A stretch of 57,739 bases of DNA from a virus. Below are positions 15,292-22,557 of this stretch, in pieces. A program made the translations under genes and the position numbers. Under the pieces are notes generated by a model that did not search any database, was not told the origin of the DNA, and saw only the letters and a list, made by a program, of their open reading frames with translations. The stretch spans positions 1 through 57,739 of the IMG/VR virus record IMGVR_UViG_3300011115_000454, one strand, 5' to 3'. The stretch's first letter is position 1, and every line of letters starts with the position of its first letter.

Positions 15292-15717
15292 ATGGCAGCA
15301 AATACAGCACCAATTTTTTCACTTGCAGGGGCAGTAAGTTTAGGAACAGCTATCGGTACATCAATTGTTACTGATTACGTTGGTACAGGCGCAAACAACG
15401 TAGTAGCGTTCACGGCTAATGCAACTAATGGAGGATTTGTACAACGTATTCGTTTTAAAGCTGTTGGCACAAATGCTGTGTCTGTTGCTCGTATTTATAT
15501 AAACAACGGGTCAACTAATGCAACTGCGGCAAACAACACGTTTTATGGTGAATTGTCTTTACCTTCTACAACTGCTTCAACAACTGCTGGTACGGTTGAT
15601 ATTGACTATCCATTAAACTTTGCTTTACCTGCGGGGTACAGAATTGTTATTGGTATTTCTGCGGCGGCGGCTCTTGCATCAGGCTGGACACCAACGGTAA
15701 TTGCTGGCGCATACTAA
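15292..15717 (+). CDS. Small virion protein, 141 aa
   Basis: A 141-residue strand-rich protein with a good AAAGGAG site. It lacks Cys; the pattern (IRFKAVGTNAVSVARIYINN, then FYGELSLPS and YRIVIGISAAAA) suggests a jelly-roll-like or beta-sandwich domain. It couples to the first glycine-rich paralogue by TAATG. Probable fibre-tip or fibre-linker protein. Confidence 0.55.
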   Translation: MAANTAPIFSLAGAVSLGTAIGTSIVTDYVGTGANNVVAFTANATNGGFVQRIRFKAVGTNAVSVARIYINNGSTNATAANNTFYGELSLPSTTASTTAGTVDIDYPLNFALPAGYRIVIGISAAAALASGWTPTVIAGAY

Positions 15718-16676
15718 TGCTTGACCTAAACAATCTTTTAACAAACCAAAAGGTTGATAAGCAGACTTTCTACGCTAATTCTCAAACGTCTGGAGCAGGA
15801 TGGGCAACATGGGCTAAACCTAGAGGCGTTAATTTTATTTCTATTTTGGCTATAGCCGGAGGAGGAGGCGGCGGCGGTGGCGGAAGAGCAGTTGCTGGAT
15901 CAGCAGCTGGAGGCGGGGGTGGCGGTGGTAGTGCGTATGTTTCATCATTATTTCCCGCTTGGATGCTTCCTGATGTGCTTTATGTATCAGTTGGAAAAGG
16001 TGGCGCTGGATCAATTGTAGCAGGCGCTGGATCAGCTGGTATAAATACATATATTTCAATATATTCATCTACTACAGGCAATAACGTAATTCATGCAGTT
16101 CTTTCTGGATCAGGAGGTACTGGTGCTGGTGGTGCTGGTGCTGCTGGCCCTGCTACTACCGTGCCTAATGCTTGTTTAGCATCTATAGGAACGTTTTATT
16201 CAGGTACTTCTGGAAGTCAAAGTGCTGCTGGACAAATAGGTGCTACTGGTTCTACTGTTTCTGCGGGAAATTCAATAACTCCTACAAATTCACTTACTAC
16301 AGGCGGCGCAGCAGGTGGCTGTTATGCTACTGCCGCAAATTCTGCTGGCGGCGCGGGCGGAAATATTAATGGAGTTGCAAATACTTTTTTTCCTACAGGT
16401 CTTTCTGGCGGAACTGCGGGAACAGCTGCTGGAACGGTAGGCAGTAATGGCTCTAACGGAGTTCAAATGTTTCCAAATTTGCCATTTGGCACAGGCGGCG
16501 CTGGGGGCGGTGGAGCGGGTCAAGCTGCCACAGGTAATACAGGTTTAAATGGCGGCTCAGGCGGTAATGGGCAATATGGTTGTGGCGGGGGTGGCGGAGG
16601 CGGTGGTTTTACCGGATCATCTGGCGGTTATGGCGGCAATGGTGGCGATGGTCTTGCAATTATTACTTCATGGTGA
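15717..16676 (+). CDS. Glycine-rich adhesin paralogue 1
   Basis: A 319-residue protein. The N-terminus MLDLNNLLTNQKVD is shared with the next two genes. A globular N-terminal part (WATWAKPRGVNFISIL) is followed by polyglycine blocks and a conserved end (YGCGGGGGGGGFTG, then IITSW). Polyglycine packing of this kind occurs in the phage adhesin Gp38, where glycine helices form a sandwich holding receptor-binding loops. The regions between the glycine blocks vary most between paralogues, as expected for receptor-binding loops. Confidence 0.65.
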   Translation: MLDLNNLLTNQKVDKQTFYANSQTSGAGWATWAKPRGVNFISILAIAGGGGGGGGGRAVAGSAAGGGGGGGSAYVSSLFPAWMLPDVLYVSVGKGGAGSIVAGAGSAGINTYISIYSSTTGNNVIHAVLSGSGGTGAGGAGAAGPATTVPNACLASIGTFYSGTSGSQSAAGQIGATGSTVSAGNSITPTNSLTTGGAAGGCYATAANSAGGAGGNINGVANTFFPTGLSGGTAGTAAGTVGSNGSNGVQMFPNLPFGTGGAGGGGAGQAATGNTGLNGGSGGNGQYGCGGGGGGGGFTGSSGGYGGNGGDGLAIITSW

Positions 16677-16679
16677 TTT

Positions 16680-17660
16680 ATGCTTGATCTTAATAATTTA
16701 CCCACAAATCAAAAAATTGACAGGCAAATTTTTTATGCCACCTCTAGCTCACAAGGCGGCACTTGGATTGCATGGCTAAAACCTCGTGGCGTTAATTTTA
16801 TAAGAATTTTATGCCTTGCTGGAGGTGGAGGTGGAGGTGGAGGGTTTGTTGGTGCGGCGGCAGTAGGAACTGCTGGTGGTGGCGGTGGGGGAGCTTCTTC
16901 ATCTCAAACAATTATTACTTTTCCTGCATGGGCATTACCTGATGTGCTTTATGTGGCTGTTGGATATGGTGGCGCAGGAGGTACAGCTTCTTCTAATGGC
17001 GCCACCGGCGTTGACACATATATTTCAATTTATGAAAGTGTGGTTCCAAACAATACAGTTTGCTATGCAAATGCCGGAGGAGGTGGAAATGCCGCTCTTG
17101 CGGGAGGATCTGGCGGATCTGCTGGCGGCGCTGGTACGGTTGCAAATTCGTATGTGGCAATTTTAGGGCAAAGCGGTAGATCAGCCGCAGCAAATTTAGG
17201 TATTGCCGCACAAGCTGGTGGTGCTGGCGGTAATAATGGCGGAGTAGGTACAAGTTTAATTTTACCAACTAGTGGGCTTATTGTTACAGCTGGGTCAGGT
17301 GGCGGTGGTTACGCTACTGGTGCAAATAGTCCGGGTGGTTCTGGTGGAGCGCTTCAGCCTGCTTCAGCGCCAGTTTTCCCAACTCAACCTACTGCGGCTG
17401 GTGGAACATCGGCAGGAACTGCTGGGGCAAATGGTTCAAATGGAGTGCAGGCTATGCCAAATTTACCATTTTTTTATGGCGGAAGCGGTGGAGGTGGAGC
17501 GGGTCAAGCCGCTACTGGTAACACAGGACTCACAGGAGGTTCTGGTGGCAAAGGTGCTTATGGTTGCGGAGGAGGGGGTGGTGGCGGAGGATTCACAGGC
17601 TCTACAGGGGGTCGAGGTGGCGATGGTGGCGATGGTTTGGTAATAATAACTTCGTGGTGA
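16680..17660 (+). CDS. Glycine-rich adhesin paralogue 2
   Basis: A 326-residue paralogue of the preceding gene, separated by three bases. It keeps the opening MLDLNNLPTNQKID, the ALPDVLYVAVGYGGAGG core and the C-terminal YGCGGGGGGGGFTG block ending IITSW. The middle (about residues 125-250) is divergent. Tandem copies may give mixed tail tips or act as a store for recombination. Confidence 0.65.
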   Translation: MLDLNNLPTNQKIDRQIFYATSSSQGGTWIAWLKPRGVNFIRILCLAGGGGGGGGFVGAAAVGTAGGGGGGASSSQTIITFPAWALPDVLYVAVGYGGAGGTASSNGATGVDTYISIYESVVPNNTVCYANAGGGGNAALAGGSGGSAGGAGTVANSYVAILGQSGRSAAANLGIAAQAGGAGGNNGGVGTSLILPTSGLIVTAGSGGGGYATGANSPGGSGGALQPASAPVFPTQPTAAGGTSAGTAGANGSNGVQAMPNLPFFYGGSGGGGAGQAATGNTGLTGGSGGKGAYGCGGGGGGGGFTGSTGGRGGDGGDGLVIITSW

Positions 17661-17663
17661 TAT

Positions 17664-18641
17664 ATGCTTGATTTAAACAATTTACCAAACAATCAAAAAA
17701 CAGATCAGCAGATTTTTTATACCAATTCAATAGGTAGTACAAGATGGGCGGTTTGGAATAAATCAAGGGGTGCTGGATTTATTCATATTTTTGCTCTTGG
17801 TGCAGCAGGCGGTGGTGGCGGCGGCTTCGCTGGCGGTGCAGGTGCAGCAGGTGGCGGCGGTGGAGGAGCTTCAGGCGGGTTTGCTAGTGCTTTCTTTTTA
17901 GCCGCTGATTTGCCTGATGTGCTTTATGTATCAGTTGGGAAAGGTGGCGCTGGCGGAGCAGTTGGTTCTGGTGGAACGACTTCTGGACCTACCTACATAG
18001 CTATTTATCCAGATGATGTTAATAACAATCTTTTCTTGTTAAATATAAGTACTGGCAATGGTGGTGGCGCTGGTAGCGCTGGAGCAGGTGGAACGGCGGG
18101 AACCGTTTCTTCTACTATTGCTTTATCAAATCAATCTTTAGCTGGATTAGGAACTTTTTATTCTACAGCTACAGGATCTGTAGGTGTTGCTGGACAGGCG
18201 GGTAGTGCTGGCGGAGGAATTAACGGCAATCCGGGTAGTAGTATTACTTATCCAACAACAGGGTCAATTACTTGTGGCGGGGGTGGCGGGGGCGGATATG
18301 CGTCTGCAACTAGCCCTGGTGGCAATGGCGGAAGAGTGACTACTGTTATTGCAGGTTGGCCTGCAACCGCAATATCTAATGGAGGTTCTGCTGGAGGCGG
18401 AGCAGGAAACAACGGCTCAAACGGTTTTCAGGTGTTTCCAAAAATGATGTTGTTTATTGGGGGCGCTGGAGGCGGGGGCGCTGGCTGCGGAGCAACTGGC
18501 ACAATAGCTGACATAGGCGGCGCGGGAGGCAAAGGTGCTTACGGTTGTGGTGGCGGCGGCGGAGGGGGTGGCTTTACGGGAACAACAGGTGGCATAGGCG
18601 GGGATGGTGGCGATGGTTTGGTAATAATAACTTCATGGTGA
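17664..18641 (+). CDS. Glycine-rich adhesin paralogue 3
   Basis: A 325-residue third copy with the same ends (MLDLNNLPNNQKTD at the start, YGCGGGGGGGGFTG near the end, IITSW last). Its C-terminal third, including NGSNGFQVFPKMMLFIGG, is the closest match to the broken fragment at 19078-19317, so that fragment was probably copied from this gene. The single Cys in the YGC block is conserved in all copies. Confidence 0.65.
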   Translation: MLDLNNLPNNQKTDQQIFYTNSIGSTRWAVWNKSRGAGFIHIFALGAAGGGGGGFAGGAGAAGGGGGGASGGFASAFFLAADLPDVLYVSVGKGGAGGAVGSGGTTSGPTYIAIYPDDVNNNLFLLNISTGNGGGAGSAGAGGTAGTVSSTIALSNQSLAGLGTFYSTATGSVGVAGQAGSAGGGINGNPGSSITYPTTGSITCGGGGGGGYASATSPGGNGGRVTTVIAGWPATAISNGGSAGGGAGNNGSNGFQVFPKMMLFIGGAGGGGAGCGATGTIADIGGAGGKGAYGCGGGGGGGGFTGTTGGIGGDGGDGLVIITSW

Positions 18642-18838: not shown

Positions 18839-19074
18839 CCCCCGAACTTGATAAATATTATTCTGACCGATTCTCGATGATGGCATCTGAGGGTTGGAAG
18901 GAATTATTAATTGATATTGACAACATGATAGTTTCCCTTAATAATATATCTGTAATTCAAGACGAAAAGTCTCTCCAATTCAAAAAAGGAGAACTTTCCA
19001 TACTTAATTGGCTAAAAACCTTGAAACAGGTTTCCGAAAGAGCATACGAGGATTTGAATGAAAAGAATATTTGA
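18835..19074 (+). CDS. Hypothetical helical protein, 79 aa
   Basis: A 79-residue helical protein (N-terminus MTPELDKYYSDRFSMMASEG). It overlaps the 61-residue gene by four bases. Similar helical proteins are often paired with fibre-helper genes, but I cannot name the family. Its 3' end marks the left edge of the degenerate duplication. Confidence 0.55.
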   Translation: MTPELDKYYSDRFSMMASEGWKELLIDIDNMIVSLNNISVIQDEKSLQFKKGELSILNWLKTLKQVSERAYEDLNEKNI

Positions 19075-19077
19075 ATT

Positions 19078-19317
19078 TGCCTGTGAAAACGGGAGTAATG
19101 GTTTTCAAATACTTCCTAAATTAATGATGTTTATTGGTGGTAGTGGAGGTGGTGGTGCAGGTGGAAGTGCCACAGGAAGCTTGACTGATATTGGTGGTAA
19201 AGGGGGCAAAGGTGCTTACGGTTGTGGGGGCGGAGGCGGAGGGGGGGCTTTACTGGCACAACTGGAGGCAGAGGCGGGGATGGTGGTGATGGTTTGGTTA
19301 TCATTACTTCTTGGTAA
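19078..19317 (+). pseudogene. Remnant of a fourth glycine-rich adhesin, frameshifted
   Basis: This stretch encodes the C-terminal third of the adhesin family (NGSNGFQILPKLMMFIGG, then YGCGGGGGGG). The frame is then lost in a G7 run at 19241-19247. Restoring one G brings back GFTGTTGGRGGDGGDG and the end IITSW with a stop at 19315-19317. The N-terminal two thirds are missing. It is a truncated copy, most like paralogue 3. A one-base error or slippage in the G-run cannot be excluded, but the truncation is real. Confidence 0.7.
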
Positions 19318-19356
19318 TTTAATTGCGTCTTAACAAGTAAAGTTGGATAATCAATT

Positions 19357-19423: not shown

Positions 19424-19792
19424 ATGAACCAAACGGTAGGGCGGCTAATTGCCGTTATGTTCTTAAGTCGTGAGGTTGCGCACAGAGAACATTTGCGCAC
19501 AAAATCATTTTCGCAACACATGGCGCTCAACACTTTTTATGAAGAAATTGTAGGGCTGGCTGACTCTATAGCCGAAGCATATCAAGGGCGGTTTGGAATA
19601 ATCGACAAAATACCAATGTTGGATAATGATGCTACGGGTACAATTGACGATATTCTTGAAAAACACCTTGATATCATTGAGAAATTAAGGTATATAGCTG
19701 TTGACAAATCACAGACTGCGATACAAAATCTGATTGATGAGTCTGTTGCATTGTACTTAAGTACTTTGTATAAACTTCGAAATCTGAAGTAA
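19424..19792 (+). CDS. Ferritin/Dps-like helical protein (DUF5856-like)
   Basis: A 122-residue, all-helical protein. The pattern of residues 12-55 (an H-rich helix with HREHLRTKSFSQHMAL, then FYEEIVGLADSIAEAYQGRFG) resembles phage proteins annotated DUF5856 and distantly Dps/ferritin-like helices. ATG 19424 is chosen over GTG 19418 because the GGAG site (19415-19418) is correctly spaced. Metal binding is possible but not shown. It is an odd gene among tail genes. Confidence 0.45.
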   Translation: MNQTVGRLIAVMFLSREVAHREHLRTKSFSQHMALNTFYEEIVGLADSIAEAYQGRFGIIDKIPMLDNDATGTIDDILEKHLDIIEKLRYIAVDKSQTAIQNLIDESVALYLSTLYKLRNLK

Positions 19793-19801
19793 GGAAAAAT
19801 C

Positions 19802-20437
19802 ATGCCAGTCGTTTTTACAAATAATGCCACTGCGCCTTTGGCGTCTTCAATCTCGTCTTCGACTACATCTATTACTGTAACGACAGGACAAGGCGCGTTG
19901 TTTCCCGCTACTTCTGCGTCTAATTATTTTTACGCCACTCTTACAGATTCAAGTAATAACTTGGAAGTTATTAAAGTCACTAGTCGAACATCCGATACTT
20001 TTACTGTAGTTAGAGCGCAAGAAGGCACAACAGCTCGTGCGTATGCAGCAGCCGATAAACTTGAAGTTCGTGTAACCGCAGCCGGCCTTACAAACATGGC
20101 TCAGTTGGATAAAGACAACGCTTTTACTGGGGCAAATAGCTTTTCTGGAGTAACAACCACTACTGCAGCCATAAATACAACAGGCACAATAACAGCTACG
20201 GCTTTTGCTGGGCCTATAACAGGCAATGTCACAGGTAACGTAACTGGTAATCTAACAGGCAATGTCACAGGTAATACATCAGGAACGGCGGGTAGTGTTT
20301 CTACTACTAACTGGACAATTACAGAATCAGGTACAAAAATCTACTTCACATATGGCGGTGTAAAGAAAGCAATGTTAGATTCATCAGGTAATTTAACAGT
20401 AGTTGGAAACGTAACGGGATATGGAACTGTAACATGA
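19802..20437 (+). CDS. Tail-fibre protein with GNVTGN repeats
   Basis: A 211-residue protein with a strand-rich N-terminal domain (about 1-95, with DTFTVVRAQEGTTARAYAAAD, a common fibre motif). A repeat track follows (GPITGNVTGNVTGN and further GNxTGN units, about residues 140-160), then a C-terminal domain with KIYFTYGGVKKAMLDSSGN. The repeats form a trimeric shaft in related fibres. It overlaps the cysteine-rich gene by four bases (ATGA), tying the two together. Confidence 0.65.
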   Translation: MPVVFTNNATAPLASSISSSTTSITVTTGQGALFPATSASNYFYATLTDSSNNLEVIKVTSRTSDTFTVVRAQEGTTARAYAAADKLEVRVTAAGLTNMAQLDKDNAFTGANSFSGVTTTTAAINTTGTITATAFAGPITGNVTGNVTGNLTGNVTGNTSGTAGSVSTTNWTITESGTKIYFTYGGVKKAMLDSSGNLTVVGNVTGYGTVT

Positions 20438-20850
20438 CGCTACCCACATCTGGAACTATTGCAATCTCCAACTTCAATACAGAAGCTGGTTTAACATCGA
20501 CTGCGTCTATCACCCTTGATTGGATTCGTACCAATACAAAAACTGGTCAGCAATCAAATTCGTTTAATGGTTACTATAGTAAAGCATGGTATCAGCGTAA
20601 TCAAGACGGTAATTGTAACAACGCAAATTGTTCTTCTGCTGCTAATTGTGTGGGCGACCTTCAATGTGTAAATTGCACATTAGCTACTATAAATTGTTCT
20701 AACTGTGATGCTCGTTCTTGGTTTCAAAGTAATTGTAACTGCGCATGTACATATAATTGCTCTCAAACCACAAATGTAAAATATAACTGCAATTGTGATT
20801 GTGCTTGTGATTGTGTTTGCGGGGGTGATTGTGGTGTTTGTGGTGTATAA
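20434..20850 (+). CDS. Cysteine-rich tail-type protein, probable radical SAM substrate
   Basis: A 138-residue protein. Residues 1-52 (LPTSGTIAISNFNTEAG, then FNGYYSKAW) match an N-terminal module widespread in phage tail and fibre proteins. Residues 61-138 contain 19 cysteines (61, 66, 72, 78, 81, 88, 91, 101, 103, 105, 109, 119, 121, 123, 125, 127, 129, 133, 136), eleven of them preceded by Asn, ending in an alternating C-x-C array. The rest is Asn, Asp, Ala, Gly and Ser. A radical SAM/SPASM gene follows by 20 bases. I infer that the tail is modified to thioether or other crosslinks; metal binding is the alternative. The start overlaps the preceding fibre stop. Confidence 0.7.
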   Translation: MTLPTSGTIAISNFNTEAGLTSTASITLDWIRTNTKTGQQSNSFNGYYSKAWYQRNQDGNCNNANCSSAANCVGDLQCVNCTLATINCSNCDARSWFQSNCNCACTYNCSQTTNVKYNCNCDCACDCVCGGDCGVCGV

Positions 20851-20870
20851 GATTATTACCAAGGAAAAAA

Positions 20871-22322
20871 ATGCAATTTAAAATTCATACATTGAATTCT
20901 GATGGGAAAAAATTAATACTAGACTATGATAACGAAACAAACGCTTTGTCTACAGAAACCGGGCATATTTTTTATGACCCCCCAAAAGAAAAATCAGAAT
21001 TTAAAACTTCTATTCCTTTTAGTAAAGTTGACCCACGTGGAAAATCTTCCAAAATAGAAATTATTAAAATCCAACTTGGATTGTCATGTAACTATAGTTG
21101 CGGGTATTGTTCGCAACGTTTTGTTGAACGTCCTACCGAAACAAGTAAAAAAGATGTTGAGTCGTTTATTGAACAAATTAACGTATTGGATTTTGACGAA
21201 AAAACAGGATTAAAAATCGAGCTTTGGGGTGGAGAACCCATGGTTTACTGGAAAACATTAGTTCCGCTTGTCGAAGCCCTGCAAGAAAAATTTGCCTCGT
21301 GGAAAAATAAACCTCGTTTTTCAATGATTACAAACGGCTCACTCCTTACGCCAGAAAAAGGATACTGGCTTATGACAAATGATTTTACTGTAGCCATTAG
21401 TCATGATGGCCCAGCACAACATCAAAGAGGGCCTGACCCATTTGATGACCCAAAACTAAAGAAAACTATACTAGATTTTTGGAAACAGATGCATCGTATG
21501 GGGCGCATAAGTTTTAACTCAATGCTTACCGCTTCTAATACCAGCAGAAAAGAAATACACGATTGGTTTATAAAATTAACAGATGACCCATCTGTAGTTC
21601 TTGGTGAGGGCGGTATTGTCGACGCCTATGATGAAGGTGGATTTGCAAGTTTATTAGATACAAAAACAAAACATTTCGCATTTCGTAAACAAGCGTTTAA
21701 TGATATTTACTCAACCAGCGGGGATGTTGGATTTAAACAAATTGTTGGGAAAATAGATTCATTTATTAATAATGTGTATTCACAAAAACCTGCTACTTCA
21801 GTAGGACAAAAATGTGGCATGGACAGTGAAAATATTATTGCTGTTGATTTGCGGGGCAACATTCTTACTTGCCACAACACAAGCTCAGTAGAAACCTCAT
21901 TTAATGGGGAAAGTCATTTAATAGGCACTGTGGCTAAAATTGATGAAGCAAAATTAACTACAGCAACACATTGGAGAAACAGACCACATTGCGCTGCTTG
22001 TCCTGTACTACATCTGTGTTCCGGCAGTTGTATGTTCCTTGAGGGTAAAAATTGGACAGAGTCATGTGCAAACGCATATAGCGATAATGTTGCATTATTT
22101 TCTTTGGCGATTGAAAAAATCACAAAAGGGTTTGTCCCATACCTTATTGAAGGTGGAGACCTCCCACCTGAACGTGCTGATATTTGGGGGGACGTGTTTA
22201 AGCACATTGAGTCCACACCCAAACAGAAATCATTTCCAGTCAAAATTATTGCCGTCGAAAAAAACATCGAAGTCAATGGCGTAGAGGTATACGCAAAATC
22301 GGAGGTAATGCATGGAGTATGA
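20871..22322 (+). CDS. Radical SAM/SPASM peptide-modifying enzyme
   Basis: A 483-residue enzyme; ATG 20871 follows an AAGGA site. The radical SAM cluster motif is C73-x3-C77-x2-C80 (CNYSCGYC), with WGGEP at 119-123. The C-terminal SPASM domain is canonical: C315-x13-G329-x4-C334, then C374-x2-C377-x5-C383-x3-C387, then C399, enough for two auxiliary 4Fe-4S clusters. Known relatives make thioether or C-C bonds in ribosomal peptides. The adjacent cysteine-rich protein is the obvious substrate. The C-terminal 80 residues beyond the SPASM domain are extra. Substrate and reaction are inferred. Confidence 0.85.
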   Translation: MQFKIHTLNSDGKKLILDYDNETNALSTETGHIFYDPPKEKSEFKTSIPFSKVDPRGKSSKIEIIKIQLGLSCNYSCGYCSQRFVERPTETSKKDVESFIEQINVLDFDEKTGLKIELWGGEPMVYWKTLVPLVEALQEKFASWKNKPRFSMITNGSLLTPEKGYWLMTNDFTVAISHDGPAQHQRGPDPFDDPKLKKTILDFWKQMHRMGRISFNSMLTASNTSRKEIHDWFIKLTDDPSVVLGEGGIVDAYDEGGFASLLDTKTKHFAFRKQAFNDIYSTSGDVGFKQIVGKIDSFINNVYSQKPATSVGQKCGMDSENIIAVDLRGNILTCHNTSSVETSFNGESHLIGTVAKIDEAKLTTATHWRNRPHCAACPVLHLCSGSCMFLEGKNWTESCANAYSDNVALFSLAIEKITKGFVPYLIEGGDLPPERADIWGDVFKHIESTPKQKSFPVKIIAVEKNIEVNGVEVYAKSEVMHGV

Positions 22323-22557
22323 ACAACTAATACAGAAGTTAGAAGCAATGCCCGAGGTTAGGTACGCTCTTGTTTATGAAGTGCAAGAATCAGGCGGCCT
22401 TACATATGCGGTGCAAATAGGTAACAATCGTAGTTCGCAAAGCAGAATGGGGAAAATCTTTGTTCCCCCCGAAATAATTGCAGATGTTGATGCGTACGAT
22501 AGTATTTGTGAAAATGTGCATAAAATATTTATGCAATATAAAACTGAAGCGTCGTAG
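22312..22557 (+). CDS. Hypothetical partner of the radical SAM enzyme, 81 aa
   Basis: An 81-residue protein whose start overlaps the enzyme's end by 11 bases, behind GGAGG (22301-22305). It has a helix-strand-strand-helix look (EQLIQKLEAM, RYALVYEVQE, LTYAVQIG, ICENVHKIFMQY). Its size suits a peptide-recognition partner, but I see no diagnostic match to the known RRE (peptide-recognition) fold. Tight coupling suggests a shared pathway. Confidence 0.5.
   Translation: MEYEQLIQKLEAMPEVRYALVYEVQESGGLTYAVQIGNNRSSQSRMGKIFVPPEIIADVDAYDSICENVHKIFMQYKTEAS

Follow-up and report, generated by a model that had tools for sequence, protein, structure and literature searches.

The two genes considered here lie next to each other in the late region of a 57.7-kb virus record (IMGVR_UViG_3300011115_000454), namely a cysteine-rich open reading frame (ORF) and a gene for a radical S-adenosylmethionine (SAM) enzyme with a SPASM domain. 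The whole stretch, hereafter the window, also encodes terminase, portal-type, capsid, internal virion and DNA polymerase genes, and all window coordinates refer to its full length. Both genes are located within its fibre cluster and, in our view, they most plausibly represent an enzyme-substrate pair (probability about 0.78), in which the maturase modifies Cys arrays at the tips of tail fibres. The features on which the following sections draw are:

19802..20437, + strand: tail-fibre protein, 211 aa (PHROG 8469 tail fiber protein, E=3e-28)
20434..20850, + strand: putative substrate, a 138-aa Cys-rich tail-type protein (Cys content; homologues beside homologous enzymes)
20434..20589, + strand: N-terminal tail-type module of this protein, residues 1-52 (weak similarity to phage tail proteins)
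20614..20847, + strand: Cys-rich domain, residues 61-138 (contains all 19 Cys; conserved among homologues)
20785..20820, + strand: alternating array NCNCDCACDCVC, residues 118-129 (from sequence; tail fibres elsewhere end in like arrays)
20871..22322, + strand: putative radical SAM/SPASM maturase, 483 aa (profile matches, invariant Cys, AlphaFold, Foldseek)
21087..21110, + strand: radical SAM cluster motif C73x3C77x2C80 (invariant in 38 relatives)
21813..22067, + strand: SPASM seven-Cys motif, C315-x13-G-x4-C334 ... C374x2C377x5C383x3C387 ... C399 (invariant; TIGR04085 above cut-off)
22312..22557, + strand: 81-aa ORF overlapping the enzyme stop (position only)

A Cys-rich gene and its radical SAM neighbour

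The ATG of the Cys-rich ORF overlaps the stop of the 211-aa fibre gene (ATGA, 20434-20437), and the enzyme gene starts with an ATG at 20871, 20 bases past the stop of the Cys-rich ORF and behind an AAGGA ribosome-binding site. A sequence-only reading of the window had already reported this overlap and this spacing, together with ten Cys positions of the enzyme, and all of them proved exact. A recount of the ORF likewise returned its figures of 138 residues with 19 Cys, every one of which falls in residues 61-138, and eleven Asn-Cys dipeptides; the protein further contains seven C-x-C. Given 0.95% Cys in the other ORFs of the window, the probability of finding 19 Cys in 78 residues is approximately 1e-21, which rules out chance composition as the source of the enrichment. 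Homologues of the Cys-rich protein lie beside homologous enzymes, with most Cys columns invariant across 10 members, and dN/dS (the ratio of nonsynonymous to synonymous substitution rates) is 0.05 for the closest comparable homologue pair (L002/L007). As to the tail module that had been proposed for residues 1-52, the similarities to a protein of a Providencia phage (24 bits) and to a tail-fibre ORF of a Vibrio phage (E of 0.04) are weak and suggest such a module rather than establish it.

The enzyme is a member of the radical SAM superfamily (PF04055, 30.9 bits with a cut-off of 29.5) and carries a SPASM domain (TIGR04085, 33.2 bits with a cut-off of 27), the spacing of which fits the canonical seven-Cys pattern CX9-15GX4C-gap-CX2CX5CX3C-gap-C. 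Its Cys residues 73, 77, 80, 315, 334, 374, 377, 383, 387 and 399 are all invariant in 38 diverse relatives, and PHROG 1802 (radical SAM domain-containing protein) matches across residues 23-418 with E=5.4e-60. The AlphaFold model is confident, with a predicted local distance difference test (pLDDT) of 90.8 and a predicted template modelling score of 0.88, and Foldseek ranks the thioether-forming CteB first, followed by the anaerobic sulfatase-maturating enzyme (anSME), ChlB, TigE, SuiB and SkfB. Among the maturase families of NCBIfam, the PapB-type ranthipeptide maturases (NF047865) match best at 92.5 bits vs a cut-off of 340, ahead of QhpD (TIGR03906, 77.2 bits vs 453).

Conservation of the pair and position of the arrays

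The pairing was approached from both sides. In an array-first search that made no use of the enzyme, 2.9 million viral contigs were scanned with a DNA pattern encoding NC-NC-NC-xC-NC (x being N, D, S or T in most cases), which returned 80 loci, in 67 of which an in-frame array lies at the C-terminus of an ORF, or near it where the ORF is Hint-fused or truncated. A radical SAM gene of the same family is present on the same strand in 54 of these 67, and for the 13 C-terminal arrays without it the available downstream sequence is always shorter than 2.5 kb, so that the enzyme was found in 54/54 cases with enough sequence. Pattern matches that were out of frame or not C-terminal had the enzyme in 0/11 cases. 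For the enzyme-first set, viral and bacterial contigs were searched with the enzyme or its alignments and pooled with the array-first loci, which gave 245 loci. An Asn-Cys array ORF lies on the same strand and at most 7 kb from the homologous enzyme in 209 of them, and the proportion holds among clusters with at least 3 kb of upstream sequence (144/159 at 95% identity, 96/106 at 80% and 47/51 at 60%). Four loci scored as array-less nonetheless have a Cys-rich protein just downstream.

A generic association of fibre genes with radical SAM genes can be rejected, as the same-family enzyme is found in 0/119 control loci picked by the common tail-fibre repeat KAGDTMTG, including 0/60 in which the downstream sequence extends over 2.5 kb or more. 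Values of dN/dS, mostly 0.03-0.15 for both genes, demonstrate purifying selection and, together with the mixed synonymous codons of most long arrays (Cys codons in 83/124, Asn codons in 89/115), make slippage of a DNA repeat unlikely. Xylophilus phage Lumi is related to Achromobacter phage JWF (PMC9959647), and a tail protein is 40% identical between the two; in Lumi the enzyme is absent genome-wide and the tail genes that were read (20 kb) contain no array. It is thus well supported that the enzyme and an adjacent, putative Cys-rich substrate are conserved as a pair, as is typical of maturases of ribosomally synthesised and post-translationally modified peptides (RiPPs). The sequence-only reading had named a consistent separation of homologous enzymes from Cys-rich proteins as the finding that would speak against it, and the loci show the reverse. 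Its expectation of an LPTSG...YYSK module as the conserved partner did not hold up, since arrays occur on diverse scaffolds, and the system extends well beyond the fibre operon of the window.

Array carriers span 65-aa ORFs to 704-aa fibres and have the array in common. Judged from their sequences, most arrays are the C-terminus of tail-fibre-like proteins: the array ends at most 9 residues from the C-terminus in 175/209 cases, and two of the array proteins examined in this respect (the JWF fibre and that of locus L054) match tail-fibre PHROG families. With array loci paired and arrays apparently ending proteins of tail-fibre families, the idea of a peptide-modification system with a virion substrate gains support. 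In about 15 of the 33 other arrays, a Hint domain follows directly, on at least 5 separate branches of the enzyme tree (PF05203; the JWF match reaches 47.5 bits and exceeds the cut-off, whereas the three further ones tested are weaker). Self-cleavage by Hint, which is predicted for 15 loci, would bring the array to the C-terminus; a leader common to the array scaffolds was not found. Hint or intein-like C-terminal domains are known from phage tail proteins, but the Hint tail protein of Providencia phage PSTNGR1 has no array and the phage no match to the enzyme family.

Most of the remaining non-terminal arrays belong to a clade near that of the window (L221-L249, e.g., L222:2517-3401), whose arrays are internal and located downstream of the enzyme. 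The domain of about 170 aa that follows these internal arrays (CSKIICTKLYEIG...) has no match in Pfam.

Possible chemistry and competing explanations

Taken together, phages with such arrays probably remodel their own tail-fibre tips chemically prior to release. We infer that the phage makes a tail protein tipped by an alternating Asn-Cys string, which the adjacent radical SAM/SPASM enzyme would modify in the reducing cytoplasm of the host, ahead of virion release. An auxiliary cluster with an expected open coordination site would bind the thiolate of a substrate Cys, a hydrogen would meanwhile be taken from a neighbouring residue, mostly Asn, by the 5'-deoxyadenosyl radical, and the resulting S-C thioether would be repeated along the array. 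As thiols are reduced in the host cytoplasm, crosslinking before lysis could avoid random disulfides outside the cell, and the fibre would gain a rigid, redox-proof tip that resists proteases and serves to bind receptors or to penetrate surfaces.

That thioethers are the most likely outcome along the array follows from analogy with four systems. In CteB, one auxiliary cluster leaves a coordination site open and is proposed to bind substrate Cys, NxxcA contains an Asn20-Cys23 C-beta thioether, such that Asn acceptors are known, freyrasin has six Cys-Asp thioethers, and QhpD installs Cys-Asp and Cys-Glu links within a protein subunit (PMC8326336). The N-x-x-C spacing used in NxxcA is also contained in the NCNC repeats. 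Provided that modification occurs, we would give the thioether an even chance of being the product. The more detailed picture of a crosslinked Asn-Cys needle (thioether, possibly hydroxylated) at receptor-binding fibre tips, built by radical SAM maturases, often with 2-oxoglutarate (2OG)-Fe(II) oxygenases, and exposed by Hint in some lineages, is tentative and would have to be rated somewhat below that.

The maturases of ranthipeptides and SCIFF peptides (CteB, PapB, NxxcB) share with the phage enzyme the combination of radical SAM and seven-Cys SPASM domains and an adjacent Cys-rich substrate, and they provide its top matches in both Foldseek (CteB) and NCBIfam (PapB). However, the phage substrate is a putative tail protein instead of a small peptide, and there is no clear sign of leader removal. 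QhpD, the maturase of quinohemoprotein amine dehydrogenase, offers a precedent outside the RiPPs, as this radical SAM/SPASM enzyme introduces Cys crosslinks into a structural protein subunit, although its substrate is unrelated and not viral.

Several points weigh against an enzyme-substrate reaction of this kind, the case for which draws on sequence, genomic context and analogy. The enzyme scores far below every NCBIfam maturase cut-off, PapB and QhpD included, and its reaction can hence not be read from family membership. A RiPP recognition element is defined as an N-terminal winged helix of three strands and three helices (PMC8326336). In the enzyme model, residues 1-30 form three strands and no helix precedes residue 81, so that the model shows no canonical element of this type. 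The Cys-rich protein of the window has no family in PHROG and Pfam scans, so that its placement in the virion relies on its relatives, and its AlphaFold model is uninformative (pLDDT 46.7). Lastly, it speaks for the reaction that Cys is the constant half of the array units, the other position being Asn in 71%, Ala in 14% and Asp in 9%, but this constancy is partly built into the definition of arrays as xC repeats.

Among the alternatives, one could imagine that the array is a metal-binding tip in which three chains stack their C-x-C motifs, the enzyme being accessory or loosely coupled. The periodicity does parallel the HxH iron sites at the fibre tip of T4 (PMC11705849), where gp37 forms the needle of the long tail fibre and likewise alternates residues of metal-ligand type. 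The array, known here from its letters, has Cys in place of His and comes with a dedicated radical enzyme, and as metal could be bound without any SPASM enzyme, the complete array-first pairing makes this explanation unlikely. Slightly less probable still appears an oxidation of array Cys to formylglycine, by which a row of aldehydes at the tip could bond amines of the host surface. Its attraction is that anSMEcpe is the second-best structural match to the enzyme model, with a common fold and SPASM architecture, that the JWF homologue is annotated as an anSME, and that anSME acts on Cys (PMC8326336). The enzyme family, however, has the seven-Cys SPASM motif and the profile score is low (TIGR03942, 56 bits vs a cut-off of 349). 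The anSME enzymes carry an eighth cluster Cys. Neither a sulfatase substrate nor its motif C-x-P-x-R is present, and the preference for Asn would be left unexplained.

We consider it improbable that the co-occurrence reflects shared ancestry or hitch-hiking and that the enzyme targets something else, for instance in the host. Both genes do travel together in late fibre cassettes, yet this one enzyme family accompanies unrelated scaffolds whose sole common feature is the array, it is missing from the other fibre loci of the control set, and Lumi lacks the enzyme and, as far as its tail genes were read, the array. An epimerisation of the PoyD type, which would yield an alternating L/D strand in a beta-helix and perhaps a pore, seems very improbable. 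It would agree with the dipeptide periodicity, which resembles the 1,3 epimerisation pattern of polytheonamide (PMC8326336). Against it, the SPASM type of the enzyme is nearest to PapB, QhpD and CteB, and array Asn is frequently replaced by Ala or Asp, which is unlike what an Asn-directed reaction would need.

Occurrence, significance and neighbouring genes

The pairing of array and enzyme occurs in many phages from freshwater, marine and soil environments. A search of 50,697 phage records returned full-length homologues of the enzyme only from Achromobacter phages JWF and 2-1 (three records). Radical SAM genes of Campylobacter phages match only residues 41-188 of the enzyme, at about 30% identity. 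No published account of the pairing was found in the open-licence literature (preprints not covered), and we know of no precedent for a virion modification system of this kind. The enzyme class, a SPASM maturase with a Cys-rich substrate, is already known, and the new element would be the virion substrate. If our interpretation is true, radical SAM protein chemistry, so far encountered chiefly in natural products of peptide type and in a small number of enzyme cofactors, also builds virus particles, and many uncultured phages would possess a new kind of post-translational modification of the virion. This would further explain the unnamed phage gene family PHROG 1802 and provide ready-made, naturally diversified enzyme-substrate pairs that act on repeated motifs. 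Since at least two cultured phages carry the system (Achromobacter phages JWF and 2-1), it is directly testable.

The company kept by more distant enzymes supports peptide or protein modification as the trade of the family. A four-member array-less sister clade (support 0.99; L191, L192, L199, L202) lies beside a YcaO-nitroreductase gene, and in the array-less locus L198 the enzyme is found beside a C39-peptidase ABC exporter and HlyD, all of which are usual neighbours of RiPP maturases. The sister clade is bacterial (Variovorax, Ramlibacter and a gammaproteobacterial metagenome-assembled genome), and its enzyme gene lies about 200 bp downstream of the YcaO-nitroreductase gene and a conserved 345-aa gene in what is apparently a RiPP-type cluster.

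A 2OG-Fe(II) oxygenase-like protein is encoded near array and enzyme in 132/245 loci (e.g., L031:4836-5552, L009:2785-3654, L183:5315-5944) and may represent a second tailoring enzyme. In the main family, 11/13 members match 2OG-FeII_Oxy_5 (best E=2e-14); the smaller family has invariant HxD...H...R residues and no match in Pfam or PDB. Neither family is encoded in the window. Another gene family, of about 290 aa and with no match in Pfam or PDB, is usually located between the array fibre and the radical SAM gene (130 loci, e.g., L098:2284-3168). Tandem radical SAM genes of the enzyme's family, one of them more divergent, occur in L041, L091, L093, L098 and L176.

In the window itself, Pfam, PHROG and NCBIfam scans of the 81-aa ORF at 22312..22557 returned no family. 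Upstream of the pair, Gly-rich fibre genes form a tandem of three paralogues (319, 326 and 325 aa) at positions 15717-18641. Downstream of them, an ORF at 19058-19333 looks like the C-terminal part of a fourth paralogue that has apparently undergone a frameshift where the sequence is rich in G. The fibre cluster also contains a small protein at 19424-19792 that matches DUF5856 / PHROG 858 (annotation: starvation-inducible regulator).
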